Of a stretch of DNA of 64,000 bases, positions 5,943 to 52,873 are shown in pieces. The notes under the pieces were generated by a model. That model was not told the DNA's origin. It saw nothing but the letters and a program-made list of their open reading frames with translations, and searched no databases. The DNA comes from Vulgatibacter incomptus (GTDB lineage: Bacteria > Myxococcota > Myxococcia > Myxococcales > Vulgatibacteraceae): positions 862,001 to 926,000 of the forward strand of contig NZ_CP012332.1 of assembly GCF_001263175.1 (NCBI RefSeq), given 5' to 3'. A program made the translations under genes and the position numbers. Every line of letters starts with the position of its first letter. The stretch's first letter is position 1.

Positions 5943-8386
5943 ACTTCCGCGCGGACCCGAAGGATCCGACGACGCTAGGACTGCTGGCGCGTGCGTTCGT
6001 CGATCTCGGACAGAAGACGAAGGGCGTCTCCGCCTACAAGGAGCTCGCTCGGGTTCTTCAGGAGACCGGGCGGGTCGGCGAGGCGGGCGCCACCTGGTTG
6101 AAGATCCTCGAGCTCGCGCCGGCGGATCCGGACGCCCTCGCTGCGGTGGCACACGGCGGAGCGAGAGCGGCCCCCGGAGCCCCGGCTCCTGCGCAGGCGC
6201 CTTTCGGCGCGCCGAGCGCGGCGCTGTCGTCTGGGCCGTTCCGCACGCCGGGCGCGCCCTCGCCGCCCTCCCTTTCTCGGGGGCCGAGCGCGGCGGTGTC
6301 GTCCGGGCCACTCCGCACGCCGGGCGTGCCGCCGCCTACGCTCTCTCGCGGGCCGAGCGCCGGGGTGTCGTCCGGGCCACTCCGCACGCCGGGCGTGCCG
6401 TCGCCCCCCACGCTTTCTCGCGGGCCGAGCGCGCCCTCGCCGCAGCCTACGCCGACGGTCGTCCTGCCGCCGGCAGCCGCCCGGCCGCGGACCCCCGGGC
6501 CTTCCGCGGTGAGCGCTCTCAGCGCCGGCCCGCAGTCCAAGCTGCTCGCCGAGCTCGACGTCTACCTGAAGTACGGGCTCCGCGACAAAGCCGTCGCCCA
6601 TCTTCGGACGCTCCTGGCGTCGGATCCAACCTCGATCGACGTCCACGAGCGCGCGATCCAGGTCCATGCCCTCACGGGCGACGCAGGAGCGCGTCGCGAT
6701 TCGATGGTCGCGGTGGTGCGGCTCTGCGCCGAGCGGGGCGAGCTCGAGCGCGGTCGGAACTGCCTCCATCGGCTGATCGACGCCCTGCCGGACGACCCGG
6801 AGCTGGACGAGCTGGTATCGCTCTATTCCTCCGGTGCACCCGCGGCCTCGGCGCCGGCGGAGGCCTCGGTGGTCCTCGAGCTCGGCGACTTCGGCGCCAC
6901 GCCCGGGGTCGCGTCGCCGATCGCCGCCGTTCCCGTGGAGGAGGCGGAGGACTTCGTCGAGGCCGAGGGAGACGACGAGCTCCTGCTCTTGCCGGACGGC
7001 GTCGAGGACGAGGACCTCTTCGTCGCGCCGGACGCTCTCGACGACGAGGCGCTGCTGGTCCCGGAAGGGGACGAGGAGATCTTCGGGCTGGCGTCGAGCG
7101 ACGGCGCCGCCGATGACGAAGAGCTCTTGCTGATCGCCGGCGACGAATCGGAGGACGAGGTCGTCGAGGAGAGCTGGGGTGGGGCCGACGAGGCTCTGGC
7201 TGCAGCCGAGCCGCTCGCGGCGAACGACGACGAGCTCCTGTCGATGGTCGCCGACGGCGTCGAGGAGGAGCGACGGCTCTCTCTCGGTCTCGATGTCGAT
7301 CCGCCGACCGAGGACGCGGAGGACGACGACGCCCTCCTGGCGGTCGACGTCGACGTTCCGGAGACGGTCGATCCCCTCGAGACGGCAGGCGGCTTCGACG
7401 CCCCCTTCGCCGCGACGCGGGTCGAGATCCCGGCCGGGGGCTTCGACTATGCTGCGACGCGGGTCGAGGGTCGCGCTCGGGACTTCTCGCACGCCTACGC
7501 AGCGACGCGAGTCGAGGCTCCCTCTGCGGTCTTCGAGCCTCCTTTCGCCGCGACGCGGGTCGAGATGCCGGCCGGGGACTTCGAGGCCGAGTCGGAAGGC
7601 GGGCTCCCGCCGGATCCCTTCGAGTCGACGGCGGTGGAGGAGGACTTCCCGTCGAGCGAGCTCGCGCCCGCTACGGCTCCCGCCGGGGCCCTCGCGCCCA
7701 GCGAGCCCTCGGTCACCGAGGTCGCGCCCCCGCCAGCGCTCGCCTCCGTGCGCGAGCCCGAGGCACCGCCGCCGGCCGCTGCCGGAGCCTCGAGCCACGA
7801 CGACGGCTTCGGTCTCTCCGATCACTTCGACTTCGCCGGCGATCTCACGGCCGAGCTCGCCGACGAGTGGAAGGACGAGGCCAAGGCCCCGGACTCGTCC
7901 AAGGACTTCCAGTACTCGGTGGACGACGTCCTCGCCGAGTTCAAGAAGGGCGTCTCACGTACGGTCAAGGCCGAGGATACCGACACCCACTACAACCTCG
8001 GCATCGCCTACAAGGAGATGGAGCTGCTGCAGGACGCGATCTCGGAGTTCGACATCGCTCGGCAGGGCTGCGTCGGCCAGAAGCGCGAGATCGAGTGCCT
8101 GACCATGCGGGGCATCTGCGAGGCCCTGCTCGGCAACCACGAAGCGGCGATCGCCGCGTTCCTCGAGGGTCTTGGGGCGGCGGCCGCGACCGCCGACACC
8201 GCGATGGCCCTCCACTACGAGATCGCCCTGTCGAACGAAGCGCTTGGGAACCTCGACGAGGCCCGGGCGAACTTCCAGCGGGTGGCTCGGATCGATCCCG
8301 GCTACCGCGACGTGGCGGAAGCGATCGAGAGAGTCGGAGGGGCCATTCCGTCCCGGCGTGGACACTACCAGGAGGGGCTGGGCTAG
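5891..8386 (+). CDS. Large TPR protein with Pro-rich and acidic linkers, main part
   Basis: 831 residues of unknown specific function. From ATG 5891 it continues the TPR array of the preceding segment (residues 1-95). A Pro/Ala/Ser linker follows with three near-copies of a block built around RGPSAxVSSGPLRTPGVP (bases 6230-6430), then another TPR-like unit at about residues 215-315 (LLAELDVYLKYGLRDKAVAHL). Next comes a long acidic region rich in DDEELLL (about 350-490) and four copies of the motif AATRVE (bases 7408-7566). Two or three C-terminal TPRs close the protein, beginning NLGIAYKEMELLQDAISEF. No signal peptide or membrane segment is seen, so it is probably a cytoplasmic scaffold. It lies directly upstream of the tamB/tamA pair. 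Confidence 0.75.
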   Translation: MFLARRDPNRALARLQVNFRADPKDPTTLGLLARAFVDLGQKTKGVSAYKELARVLQETGRVGEAGATWLKILELAPADPDALAAVAHGGARAAPGAPAPAQAPFGAPSAALSSGPFRTPGAPSPPSLSRGPSAAVSSGPLRTPGVPPPTLSRGPSAGVSSGPLRTPGVPSPPTLSRGPSAPSPQPTPTVVLPPAAARPRTPGPSAVSALSAGPQSKLLAELDVYLKYGLRDKAVAHLRTLLASDPTSIDVHERAIQVHALTGDAGARRDSMVAVVRLCAERGELERGRNCLHRLIDALPDDPELDELVSLYSSGAPAASAPAEASVVLELGDFGATPGVASPIAAVPVEEAEDFVEAEGDDELLLLPDGVEDEDLFVAPDALDDEALLVPEGDEEIFGLASSDGAADDEELLLIAGDESEDEVVEESWGGADEALAAAEPLAANDDELLSMVADGVEEERRLSLGLDVDPPTEDAEDDDALLAVDVDVPETVDPLETAGGFDAPFAATRVEIPAGGFDYAATRVEGRARDFSHAYAATRVEAPSAVFEPPFAATRVEMPAGDFEAESEGGLPPDPFESTAVEEDFPSSELAPATAPAGALAPSEPSVTEVAPPPALASVREPEAPPPAAAGASSHDDGFGLSDHFDFAGDLTAELADEWKDEAKAPDSSKDFQYSVDDVLAEFKKGVSRTVKAEDTDTHYNLGIAYKEMELLQDAISEFDIARQGCVGQKREIECLTMRGICEALLGNHEAAIAAFLEGLGAAAATADTAMALHYEIALSNEALGNLDEARANFQRVARIDPGYRDVAEAIERVGGAIPSRRGHYQEGLG

Positions 8387-49972: not shown

Positions 49973-50048
49973 GGGGCAGTAGCTCAGCTGGGAGAGCGCC
50001 GCAATGGCATTGCGGAGGTCAGGGGTTCGATCCCCCTCTGCTCCACCA
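49973..50048 (+). tRNA. tRNA-Ala (anticodon GGC)
   Basis: A 76-base gene with encoded CCA. The acceptor stem GGGGCAG pairs with CTGCTCC (one G-T). D-arm GCTCAGCTGGGAGAGC, anticodon stem CCGCA/TGCGG with loop ATGGCAT (anticodon GGC), and T-arm GGGGTTCGATCCCC. A TATGCT at 49917-49922 may be its -10. Its 3' end is repeated at 52026. Confidence 0.96.
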
Positions 50049-50091
50049 AAGTAACCCCGCGAATCCTTTGGGTTCGCGGGGTTTTCCTTTT
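50039..50091 (+). repeat. Direct repeat, copy 1: tRNA-Ala 3' end plus terminator
   Basis: 53 bases starting in the acceptor stem of tRNA-Ala and running through its CCA and terminator. Identical to 52026-52078; the next base on either side differs. A tRNA 3' end is the usual attachment site of integrative elements. Confidence 0.85.
50053..50091 (+). terminator. Rho-independent terminator of tRNA-Ala
   Basis: AACCCCGCGAA (50053-50063) pairs with TTCGCGGGGTT (50073-50083) over a nine-base loop, followed by TTTTCCTTTT. An identical structure is at 52040-52078. Confidence 0.9.
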
Positions 50092-50312
50092 GGAGCCCAG
50101 GAATCGCTACGAGCTGGATAAGGGCCGTTCCCTTGCGGGGCTCGGAGGGGTCAGGCTCCCAGGCCACTACATCCACGATGGACCGAAGAAGGCCCTTGAT
50201 CGCCTCCCTCTCCTCTCGCTCCACAGCGACCGCCAAGGAGCGGGCAAGCTGCCGGTAGGAGTCCGCTTGAAGAGGTACCGCGATGCTGGCCCGCGGTACC
50301 TCATGGTTGGCA
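50092..50312 (-). pseudogene. Possible C-terminal remnant of a recombinase
   Basis: On the minus strand an open frame of about 74 codons reads ASIAVPLQADSYRQLARSLA, then EREEREAIKGLLRSIVDVVA and WEPDPSEPRKGTALIQLV before entering the repeat. It has protein-like composition with a helix and a strand and no start of its own. Tails of this style, ending against a tRNA attachment site, are seen in serine recombinases, but similarity is only by impression. It overlaps no other gene; the rest of this 265-base gap after the tRNA is the terminator. Confidence 0.25.
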
Positions 50313-51794
50313 CTACGGAGCGGTGGTGAAGGAGCGCTCCCCGGTGCGGAACCCCATCAGGTCTTCGATGTCCAGGATGCGAACGAAGCCCATCCCCCTT
50401 CCATCGGCGATGTCGTCTGCACCCAGAAAGCCGTCGGTGATCGCAGCGGTCACCAACCAGGAATAGGTCGTCGATCCGACCAGCTTCATTTCGTCCAGAT
50501 CGGAGTCGGCGAGGGTGAGGCTGCTCACATCGCCTGGCAGATAATACTGCAGAGAATACTGATGAGCCTGATTGGTGTCGTTGAGGACGATCTCGACCCA
50601 ATAGCTCTTGGCGCCATTCACAGGCGTCCAGCTCAGCGTCGGCAGGCGGGACACGTTGGTGGCCCCTTCTGCTGGTTCGAGGAGCTTCAAGGCCTGGGTC
50701 TGAGGGAACTTGATCGTGGTGGCTCCGGCCGAGGTCACCTTTGCCACGCGTATCGCGATGGTTCCGTCCGCGTCGGCGCCGACGAGCGCGAGCCTGCCGC
50801 CCTCCGAAGGCAACTCGACGTCGGCGTCGTTGGGAAGCTCGGTATCGCCCCCGAAGCGTTCCGCGAGGGTGAAGCGAGCCCCATGCAGATCGAAGCTCAA
50901 CACACCCGAGCTCTTCCCGTTGTCGTAGGCGCCGTAAGTGGCGTTGAAGCGGGTCTGGAAGGTGCTGATCGGAGCAGACGACAGCTCGATCTGCAGGCCG
51001 CTGGTGTTGCCTTCATCGTTCATGGCCACGTCTTCTCGTACGCCGGCAGCCCGATAGACAATGGTTCCATCGGCCTTTAGACCCACGTGGGCCGCCACGA
51101 CGTCGACGCTTCGGGAGGGAGGACCGAACCAGCGCACCTCGGCGGAATACGCCCCGGGCCCCTGGAGCTCGAAGCATGCGTGGTCGTTTCCCGTTGTCGA
51201 GATCAGGATCGATTCCCCGGCGGGGAAAGGGGCCTGGGCACCGGTGATCGTTCCGGTCAGGGTTGCGCGCGAGAGCCCATTGGCGTTGTCGAATCGAGCC
51301 ACCCGGGGATCCCGGCGGGTCAGCCTCCTGAGTTCAACGATATCACCCGATGGAAACTTCAAGGTCAAATCGTAGGGCACATCTACCCCGTCAAAACTGA
51401 ATTTCCCCTCTGCGTCCGTCTCCTGACTGAAGCCGAAGGCATGATTCAGGACCGCGAGCGCCCCGGCCATGGGCTTGCCTCGGTCATCGATCACGGTCCC
51501 TAGGACCTGGTTGATAGGCTGCGGATCTCCGCCATGGCCTCCCTCGCCTGCGGTGCCGCCCTGGCCTCCGCCACCCTCACCGGCGGTGCCGCCCTGACCG
51601 CCGCTCCCCTCGCCAGCGCTGCCACCCTGACCGCCGCCACCATGGCCGGCGGTGCCACCGTCTCCACCGGAGCCGGCTTCGCCACCAGCCCCTCCACCGC
51701 CCCCAGTCCCAACCTTCGGGTCGGTCTTGTCTGCACCACAGGCCACCAGGGCCAGCGCTGCAAACAACATCCCTACGGTCCTCAAACTCATCAT
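50313..51794 (-). CDS. Gly-rich-linker lipoprotein with carboxypeptidase-regulatory-like domain
   Basis: 493 residues from ATG 51794 (GGGAGGA upstream). Lipobox ALVAC (Cys at about 19). Residues 28-95 are a Gly-rich linker of GGxGGTAGEGG-type repeats, like the tail of the lipoprotein at 878-1660. A carboxypeptidase-regulatory-like beta-sandwich follows (residues 100-165, VLGTVIDDRGKPMAGALAVL...GKFSFDGVDVPYDLTL). The central 200 residues are beta-rich and unassigned. A fibronectin-III-like segment near 370-460 (NVSRLPTLSWTPVNGAKSYW) precedes the end. It is a surface lipoprotein of unknown function, and the only full gene between the two tRNA-derived repeats. Confidence 0.75.
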   Translation of the reverse strand: MMSLRTVGMLFAALALVACGADKTDPKVGTGGGGGAGGEAGSGGDGGTAGHGGGGQGGSAGEGSGGQGGTAGEGGGGQGGTAGEGGHGGDPQPINQVLGTVIDDRGKPMAGALAVLNHAFGFSQETDAEGKFSFDGVDVPYDLTLKFPSGDIVELRRLTRRDPRVARFDNANGLSRATLTGTITGAQAPFPAGESILISTTGNDHACFELQGPGAYSAEVRWFGPPSRSVDVVAAHVGLKADGTIVYRAAGVREDVAMNDEGNTSGLQIELSSAPISTFQTRFNATYGAYDNGKSSGVLSFDLHGARFTLAERFGGDTELPNDADVELPSEGGRLALVGADADGTIAIRVAKVTSAGATTIKFPQTQALKLLEPAEGATNVSRLPTLSWTPVNGAKSYWVEIVLNDTNQAHQYSLQYYLPGDVSSLTLADSDLDEMKLVGSTTYSWLVTAAITDGFLGADDIADGRGMGFVRILDIEDLMGFRTGERSFTTAP

Positions 51795-52025
51795 CTTGGA
51801 TCCTCCCTGGGGCGCTCCCCGCAAAGGTTTCAAAATACCACAATGAAGGGGTGGCCCGACCTCGCGCTTTGCCCTCGCCTAGAACAGTTGAAGGCCTGGT
51901 GGAATTGGGGCGGCAGAACGGCTTCGAGGATCGAGAGCGAGCCCGTCAGCCCCTCGACAGAGCGGAAGTCGCAAGGAAGTCGGAAGGTTAGAGACGGCCC
52001 ATCGGAGTTCGAAAAGCGTCCGCTA

Positions 52026-52078
52026 TGCTCCACCAAAGTAACCCCGCGAATCCTTTGGGTTCGCGGGGTTTTCCTTTT
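52026..52078 (+). repeat. Direct repeat, copy 2: tRNA-Ala 3' end plus terminator
   Basis: Identical to 50039-50091, but without the rest of a tRNA: upstream bases (51840-52025) do not fold into the missing part. It keeps a working-looking terminator (52040-52078). This is what an attR site, or the scar of a duplicated tRNA, would look like. Confidence 0.85.
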
Positions 52079-52119
52079 TCAGGCGCATGGAGCGCCAAAA
52101 GCTGGATCCGGGCCATCGT

Positions 52120-52317
52120 TCATCGGGGCCGACCGGGGTTTCGTCCCTGCCAGCGCTCCAGCTCCTCCACCAACAGCTCGGCGACTCCGCGCACGAGGGG
52201 TGTATCGAGGGCGCTCTTGGCGCAGACGAGGTGGTGCGCCGGTCGGACAACTTCCTCGTCCAATGGAGGGCGGCCGAGTGCGGACTCGGCGCGTTCATCA
52301 AGCCGAGGATGACCCAC
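52120..52317 (-). pseudogene. Remnant of a LysR-type regulator (C-terminal end)
   Basis: 65 residues on the minus strand. The sequence DEEVVRPAHHLVCAKSALDT followed by PLVRGVAELLVEELERWQ matches the usual last strand and helix of LysR substrate-binding domains (a hydrophobic strand ending in V, then residues like T-P-x-V-R and a long final helix). Everything upstream, including the helix-turn-helix, is absent; the frame begins at an 11-base inverted repeat (52308-52318). The family call rests on pattern only. Confidence 0.4.
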
Positions 52318-52357: not shown

Positions 52358-52873
52358 GTGGGTCATCAACACCCCCGCGATGGGCGCCTACATCTCGATC
52401 ACGTCTCCGGCCTCCCGGACGTGCCGAAGGGGACGCCCATCTTCGCGGGCCCGGGCGAAGCGCATCCCAGGCGGTTCATCAACCTCTTCACGCAAGGGTC
52501 CATCGATCGCGCCCTGGCGGGGCACGCGCCGGTACAGGAATGGCCCTTCCAAGGAGGGGACGAGCGCTTCGCCGGGATCGTCGACGTCTTCGGCGACGGC
52601 TCGCTCTGGGCGATCTGGGTGCCGGGGCATACGCCGGGATCCGTCGCCTACCTCGCTCGAACCGTCCGCGGTCCGGTGCTCTTCGTGGGCGACACCTCGC
52701 ATACCTCTTGGGGCTGGCGGCACGACGTCGAGCCGGGGAGCTACACCGTCGATCGGGCGATGAACGCGACGAGCCTCGCGGCCCAGCGCCGGCTGGTGGC
52801 CGAGCATCCGGGCATCGACGTGAGGCTGGGGCACCAGCACCTCGACGAGAGCCGGACCGCCACCCGGCGGTAA
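52358..52873 (+). pseudogene. MBL-fold metallo-hydrolase, N-terminally truncated
   Basis: 171 residues. It starts in the middle of the metal-binding motif: the family's HxHxDH reads RLHLDH here, so the first His is lost, together with about 100 residues that should precede it. The rest is well kept: HVSGLPDVPKGTPIFAGPGE, WAIWVPGHTPGSVAYLART with the His of strand 9, and VLFVGDTSHTSWGW with the metal-bridging Asp. The C-terminal His lies in DVRLGHQHLDE. The truncation point coincides with the inverted repeat at 52357-52367. A functional enzyme is unlikely. Confidence 0.7.

Follow-up and report, generated by a model that had tools for sequence, protein, structure and literature searches.

A decayed element at the 3' end of tRNA-Ala(GGC) in Vulgatibacter incomptus, probably inserted by a large serine recombinase

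Background

Which process placed a second copy of the end of tRNA-Ala(GGC) downstream of the gene in Vulgatibacter incomptus, and does the DNA between both copies still point to the enzyme responsible? We addressed this question in a stretch of 64,000 nucleotides (the window; bases 862001-926000 of a single contig of 4,350,553 bases), for which a first-pass annotation had suggested that an integrated element at this position could be minimal, decayed or mobilised in trans. Tyrosine integrases classically insert at tRNA genes, and the cores used by serine integrases are usually short. Serine integrases that target tRNA genes were not known as of 2014 (Islander paper, PMC4383910; later reports are possible), and in mycobacterial prophages tRNA sites have been reported for tyrosine, not serine, integrases (PMC10654092). 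A survey of large serine recombinases (LSRs) discarded candidates with an identical centre of more than 20 bp (PMC10083194).

The tRNA end is repeated around a foreign segment

The two copies of the repeat (Table 1) are identical over 53 bp and lie 1,987 bp apart from start to start. Their identity ends sharply, with 6 of 20 matching positions in the left flanks and 3 of 20 in the right flanks, which confirms the perfect repeat that had been described earlier. No exact direct repeat in the window is longer, and only one other of at least 30 bp is present in the 64 kb, namely a 37-bp repeat elsewhere (6295-6331 and 6364-6400, 69 bp apart). A 28-nt piece of the 53-bp repeat is found at just the two known places when up to 3 mismatches are allowed (chance expectation 0.00). 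Because ARAGORN places the end of tRNA-Ala(GGC) at 50048, the repeat holds the last 10 nt of the gene (TGCTCCACCA) and the next 43 nt, in which a strong terminator hairpin is predicted (-29 kcal/mol, z -5.5). The repeat thus covers the acceptor end and the terminator, as had been claimed. The genome yields four matches to tRNA-Ala with a single GGC locus among them; the other Ala tRNA is CGC. Overall, the layout is that of a tRNA-targeted island, in which the tRNA gene remains complete on one side and its 3' fragment is repeated in direct orientation on the other.

Table 1. Features of the tRNA-Ala(GGC) locus, in window positions
Feature	Position	Strand	Evidence
tRNA-Ala(GGC), probable target gene, still complete	49973..50048	+	ARAGORN; own-genome matches
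Proximal copy of the 53-bp putative att core (attL): last 10 nt of tRNA plus terminator	50039..50091	+	Exact repeat
tRNA-Ala terminator within the proximal core	50053..50083	+	Hairpin prediction
C-terminal LSR remnant, 61 codons	50087..50269	-	Profile E 7.8e-16; homologue search
Putative break zone between recombinase remnant and lipoprotein gene	50270..50312		End of recombinase similarity
Lipoprotein gene, intact, 493 codons	50313..51791	-	Lipobox LVAC; GGAGG upstream; Gly-rich linker
Non-coding right end of the putative element, 60% GC	51834..52025		Composition; circle-joined reading
Distal copy of the 53-bp putative att core (attR), no tRNA body upstream	52026..52078	+	Exact repeat; shuffle test
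TCAGGC, also found after the tRNA-Ala(CGC) terminator	52079..52084	+	Comparison with own-genome paralogue

The 1,934 bp between the copies are foreign in base composition. Their GC content is 63.8% against 69.5% for the whole window, and the GC3 of the lipoprotein gene is 0.75 against 0.89-0.94 in neighbouring genes. The first-pass annotation had listed one lipoprotein and no intact integrase as the contents. The visible gene is indeed that of a lipoprotein, but the absence of an integrase is incomplete, as a C-terminal remnant of an LSR gene is present on the minus strand. The lipoprotein shows a weak match to a carboxypeptidase-regulatory-like domain (CarboxypepD_reg). Six further matches are found in its own genome (31-37% identity; C1:1478942-1494907 and C1:2205808); outside it there are weak matches in 2 of 59 relatives and none better. 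The protein therefore belongs to a lineage-specific family and not to the mobility genes. Four of the six paralogues are clustered within 6 kb.

A recombinase remnant adjoins the tRNA-side copy

The frame next to the tRNA-side copy (minus strand, 50269-50087) encodes the peptide QADSYRQLARSLAVAVEREEREAIKGLLRSIVDVVAWEPDPSEPRKGTALIQLVAIPGLQK. It has no match in Pfam, NCBIfam or PHROGs, and its kinship to recombinases was exposed only by genome searches with the peptide. When 145 genomes of the order were searched, matches were obtained in G098, G054 and G136 (E 3e-9 to 2e-7; 38-41% identity), and in all three the matching part is the C-terminal end of a long recombinase ORF. A further match in G055 was dropped, its frame being unrelated to recombinases. 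In the reverse test, a profile of the three C-termini was run against 836 six-frame segments of the window and the remnant was the sole match (E 7.8e-16). Searches of phages with tblastn returned chance matches only, and the LSR relatives seen in viral contigs are distant (26-31%).

The remnant is thus homologous to the C-terminal region of LSRs. The N-terminal Resolvase catalytic domain with its active serine was not found in the window but is present in G054, G136 and G095. Given that the similarity to relatives stops near 50270, the rest of the recombinase gene is gone, and the 61 codons are all that the segment carries of an integrase gene. The frame of the remnant is open through the 53-bp core and continues into the tRNA antisense. 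When the segment is read as a joined circle, the same frame meets a TAG (52025-52023) as the first codon past the core, although a single stop position is weak evidence.

Relatives with complete enzymes at tRNA-Asn

The LSRs of G054 and G136 are full-length, with Resolvase, Recombinase and Zn ribbon domains. In both genomes the LSR gene is directed toward tRNA-Asn(GTT) and has a frame that stops 41 nt within the tRNA, on the antisense strand. The more distant G095 shows this arrangement too, whereas none of the other LSR relatives checked is placed at a tRNA in this way. In the LSR tree G054, G136 and G098 form one fully supported clade and G095 stands apart. The G098 member (8139-9311 in L041, from G098:C49) misses its N-terminal part and has no adjacent tRNA, and is apparently a relic as well.

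Both ends of the element can be seen in only one intact relative, G054, a metagenome bin (Myxococcales bacterium BP8.bin42; G054:C227, JAJYAW010000010.1). Here the element spans 13.4 kb and has at both ends a 21-bp repeat, of which 11 nt belong to the tRNA; the second occurrence of the tRNA end CCGTCCAGTGTGGCTCCCCAG is 13.4 kb from the first. Its contents include DUF932 and DUF3987 genes, and once the flanks are joined tRNA-Asn is whole again, with another terminator. Its similarities to the window locus are an LSR gene directed toward the tRNA, a core at the acceptor end (11 nt against 10 nt of tRNA) and an integrase frame that crosses the core into the tRNA. There are also differences, as G054 combines a full-length LSR, 13.4 kb, tRNA-Asn(GTT) and a 21-bp core, whereas the window holds a 61-codon remnant, tRNA-Ala and a 53-bp core. 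Moreover, the G054 element brings its own terminator unlike that of the host, whereas the identical core of the window includes the terminator.

In the joined circle of G054 the LSR frame crosses the core and enters an ORF that has a YdaS/ParB-like HTH (2839-3237 in L042, from G054:C227). This ORF may be a split C-terminal domain of the enzyme or a separate gene with an internal ATG start. We did not keep the split-enzyme idea: in G050 an ORF of the same sequence stands apart from any LSR, so that the HTH could well be a gene of its own.

Proposed origin of the segment

We consider it probable that the 3' end of tRNA-Ala(GGC) received an LSR element with its att core in the 3' end of the integrase gene, and that this element was gutted afterwards. 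The foreign composition, the lack of a second tRNA and the LSR remnant beside the repeat support the earlier proposal of a decayed integrated element at this site. The circular element would have carried, within the 3' end of its LSR gene, an attP that contained a copy of the terminator and of the final 10 nt of the tRNA; this placement is deduced from the relatives and from the frame, which is open across the core. Recombination with the identical stretch at the tRNA would have put the element between two copies and kept the single-copy tRNA whole. Integration would also have swapped the natural end of the LSR (the TAG at 52025-52023) for the antisense tRNA reading, the frame of which is observed. 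Later losses would have removed the catalytic, recombinase and zinc-ribbon regions of the LSR and any other genes, leaving the 61 C-terminal codons and one lipoprotein gene. The gutted state is the one observed at present, and the order of the losses is our reconstruction.

The main point against an LSR is the core itself. A length of 53 bp is unusual, since the LSR survey dropped centres above 20 bp, and it is not the short identical core of serine-integrase att sites (G054 has 21 bp). In addition, the remnant comprises just 61 codons and could be a passenger, and the nearest intact relatives are located at tRNA-Asn, not tRNA-Ala.

If the fragment is a passenger from another element, the segment might be what is left of a tyrosine-integrase island at the tRNA-Ala 3' end whose integrase was lost. 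An identical repeat of 53 bp is typical of tyrosine integrases, and tRNA-Ala(GGC) is a recurrent island site across the order: its 3' half is repeated 5-10 kb apart in G008, G013 and G031 (L025, L023 and L027; repeats of 50, 45 and 51 bp, respectively), and at least one of these islands, in G008, encodes a tyrosine integrase. We nevertheless regard this origin as unlikely. The repeats of those islands include 45-47 nt of the tRNA against 10 nt in the window and 11 nt in G054, no remnant of a tyrosine integrase was seen in the segment, and the LSR fragment lies directly against the core, which its frame crosses without a stop, as is the case in G054, G136 and G095. Both the sub-site within the tRNA and the layout therefore argue for an LSR rather than a lost tyrosine integrase. 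A partial tRNA-Ala copy near a tyrosine integrase was also observed in G037 (L026).

Mobility today

The segment is probably immobile now, a fossil in which both putative att copies are preserved, because no intact LSR was found in its own genome. The single PF07508 (Pfam Recombinase) match in that genome lacks most of the catalytic Resolvase N-terminus. This LSR, the only other one in the genome (9176-10729 in L045, from G000:C1), ends in a C-terminal HTH.

One could argue that the segment is a minimal element that still moves, with two att copies around a lipoprotein cargo that is excised in trans by the LSR of another element. The identity of the att copies would fit, as would the lipoprotein gene, which seems intact (ribosome-binding site and lipobox). 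However, the truncated PF07508 protein leaves no candidate enzyme in the genome, viral contigs gave no match to the 28-nt core, and matches of the whole segment to phage and plasmid DNA cover the Gly-rich coding stretch only. Mobilization in trans is therefore very unlikely.

Comparison with known systems

An LSR element with its core inside the enzyme gene would share features with three known systems. In the myxophage Mx8 of Myxococcus xanthus the att site lies inside the integrase gene, and integration replaces the C-terminus of the integrase (PMC6070905, PMC4701971). The window likewise has the core inside the integrase reading frame, as judged from the open frame and from the TAG in the circle reading. 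Mx8, however, is an intact phage and its Int is a tyrosine integrase (PMC4701971) that matches Pfam phage-integrase models (Phage_int_M), whereas the remnant is LSR-like. Streptococcal rumA ICEs do encode a serine integrase with the att site inside its gene, so that integrated and excised C-termini differ (PMC4701971), but these are conjugative elements that insert into a protein gene. Finally, the islands of the Islander type share the intact tRNA with a displaced 3' fragment of it as direct repeat. They are defined with tyrosine integrases, though, and the window segment would fail both the integrase and the 2-kb filters.

Taken together with the relatives, the locus raises the idea that a Myxococcota LSR clade targets tRNA acceptor ends (tRNA-Asn in G054 and G136, tRNA-Ala here and, independently, tRNA-Asn in G095). 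The core would lie in the 3' end of the LSR gene, and each integration would rewrite the C-terminus of the enzyme, maybe as a switch between integration and excision. In our judgement this generalization could go either way. If true, LSRs at tRNA ends would be an exception to tyrosine-only tRNA targeting, would offer conserved landing sites for a group of enzymes widely used as tools, and would account for tRNA-linked relics that are overlooked by island finders restricted to tyrosine integrases. The locus itself is minor, a small fossil; its value is that it points to tRNA-targeting LSRs whose core would lie within the gene of the enzyme.

Host flank and possible duplication

A tandem duplication of tRNA-Ala with decay of the second copy is extremely unlikely. 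The paralogous tRNA-Ala(CGC) gene (G000:C1:819933-820051), with almost the same terminator as tRNA-Ala(GGC), does indicate that copies of tRNA plus terminator arise in this lineage. Against such a duplication, however, 53 bp are perfect while no tRNA body can be detected before the distal copy (p 0.16 in comparison with shuffles and 0.33 with random positions of the window), and both the integrase remnant and the foreign base composition would be left unexplained. Two tandem tRNA-Ala genes, which the first-pass annotation had named, if present in relatives, as the sign of such a duplication, were accordingly not seen here. A candidate T-arm relic before the distal copy was rejected as not significant.

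The bases behind the two cores also differ. The distal copy is followed by TCAGGC, the same as in the tRNA-Ala(CGC) paralogue, and the proximal copy by GGAGCC, the pattern that an insert would leave if it had pushed the host flank away from the tRNA. This is modest evidence that the distal side is the original flank, as the comparison covers six bases and the longer alignment is not significant. Before insertion, the single 53-bp copy at tRNA-Ala(GGC) would then have been followed by TCAGGCGCATGGAGCGCC.

In G001, the sole genome of the same family, contig C24 ends just past the tRNA and C85 begins inside the reductase gene that is located downstream in the window. The assembly break falls exactly at the tRNA-Ala 3' end (L028, L046), possibly a sign that this site, too, holds a repeat or an insertion.

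Right of the distal copy, a candidate LysR fragment (52120-52317, minus strand) was dropped as it has no Pfam match. A metallo-beta-lactamase-fold gene follows at 52358-52873; it lacks its N-terminal part, so that the host flank seems to have decayed further or to have been rearranged.
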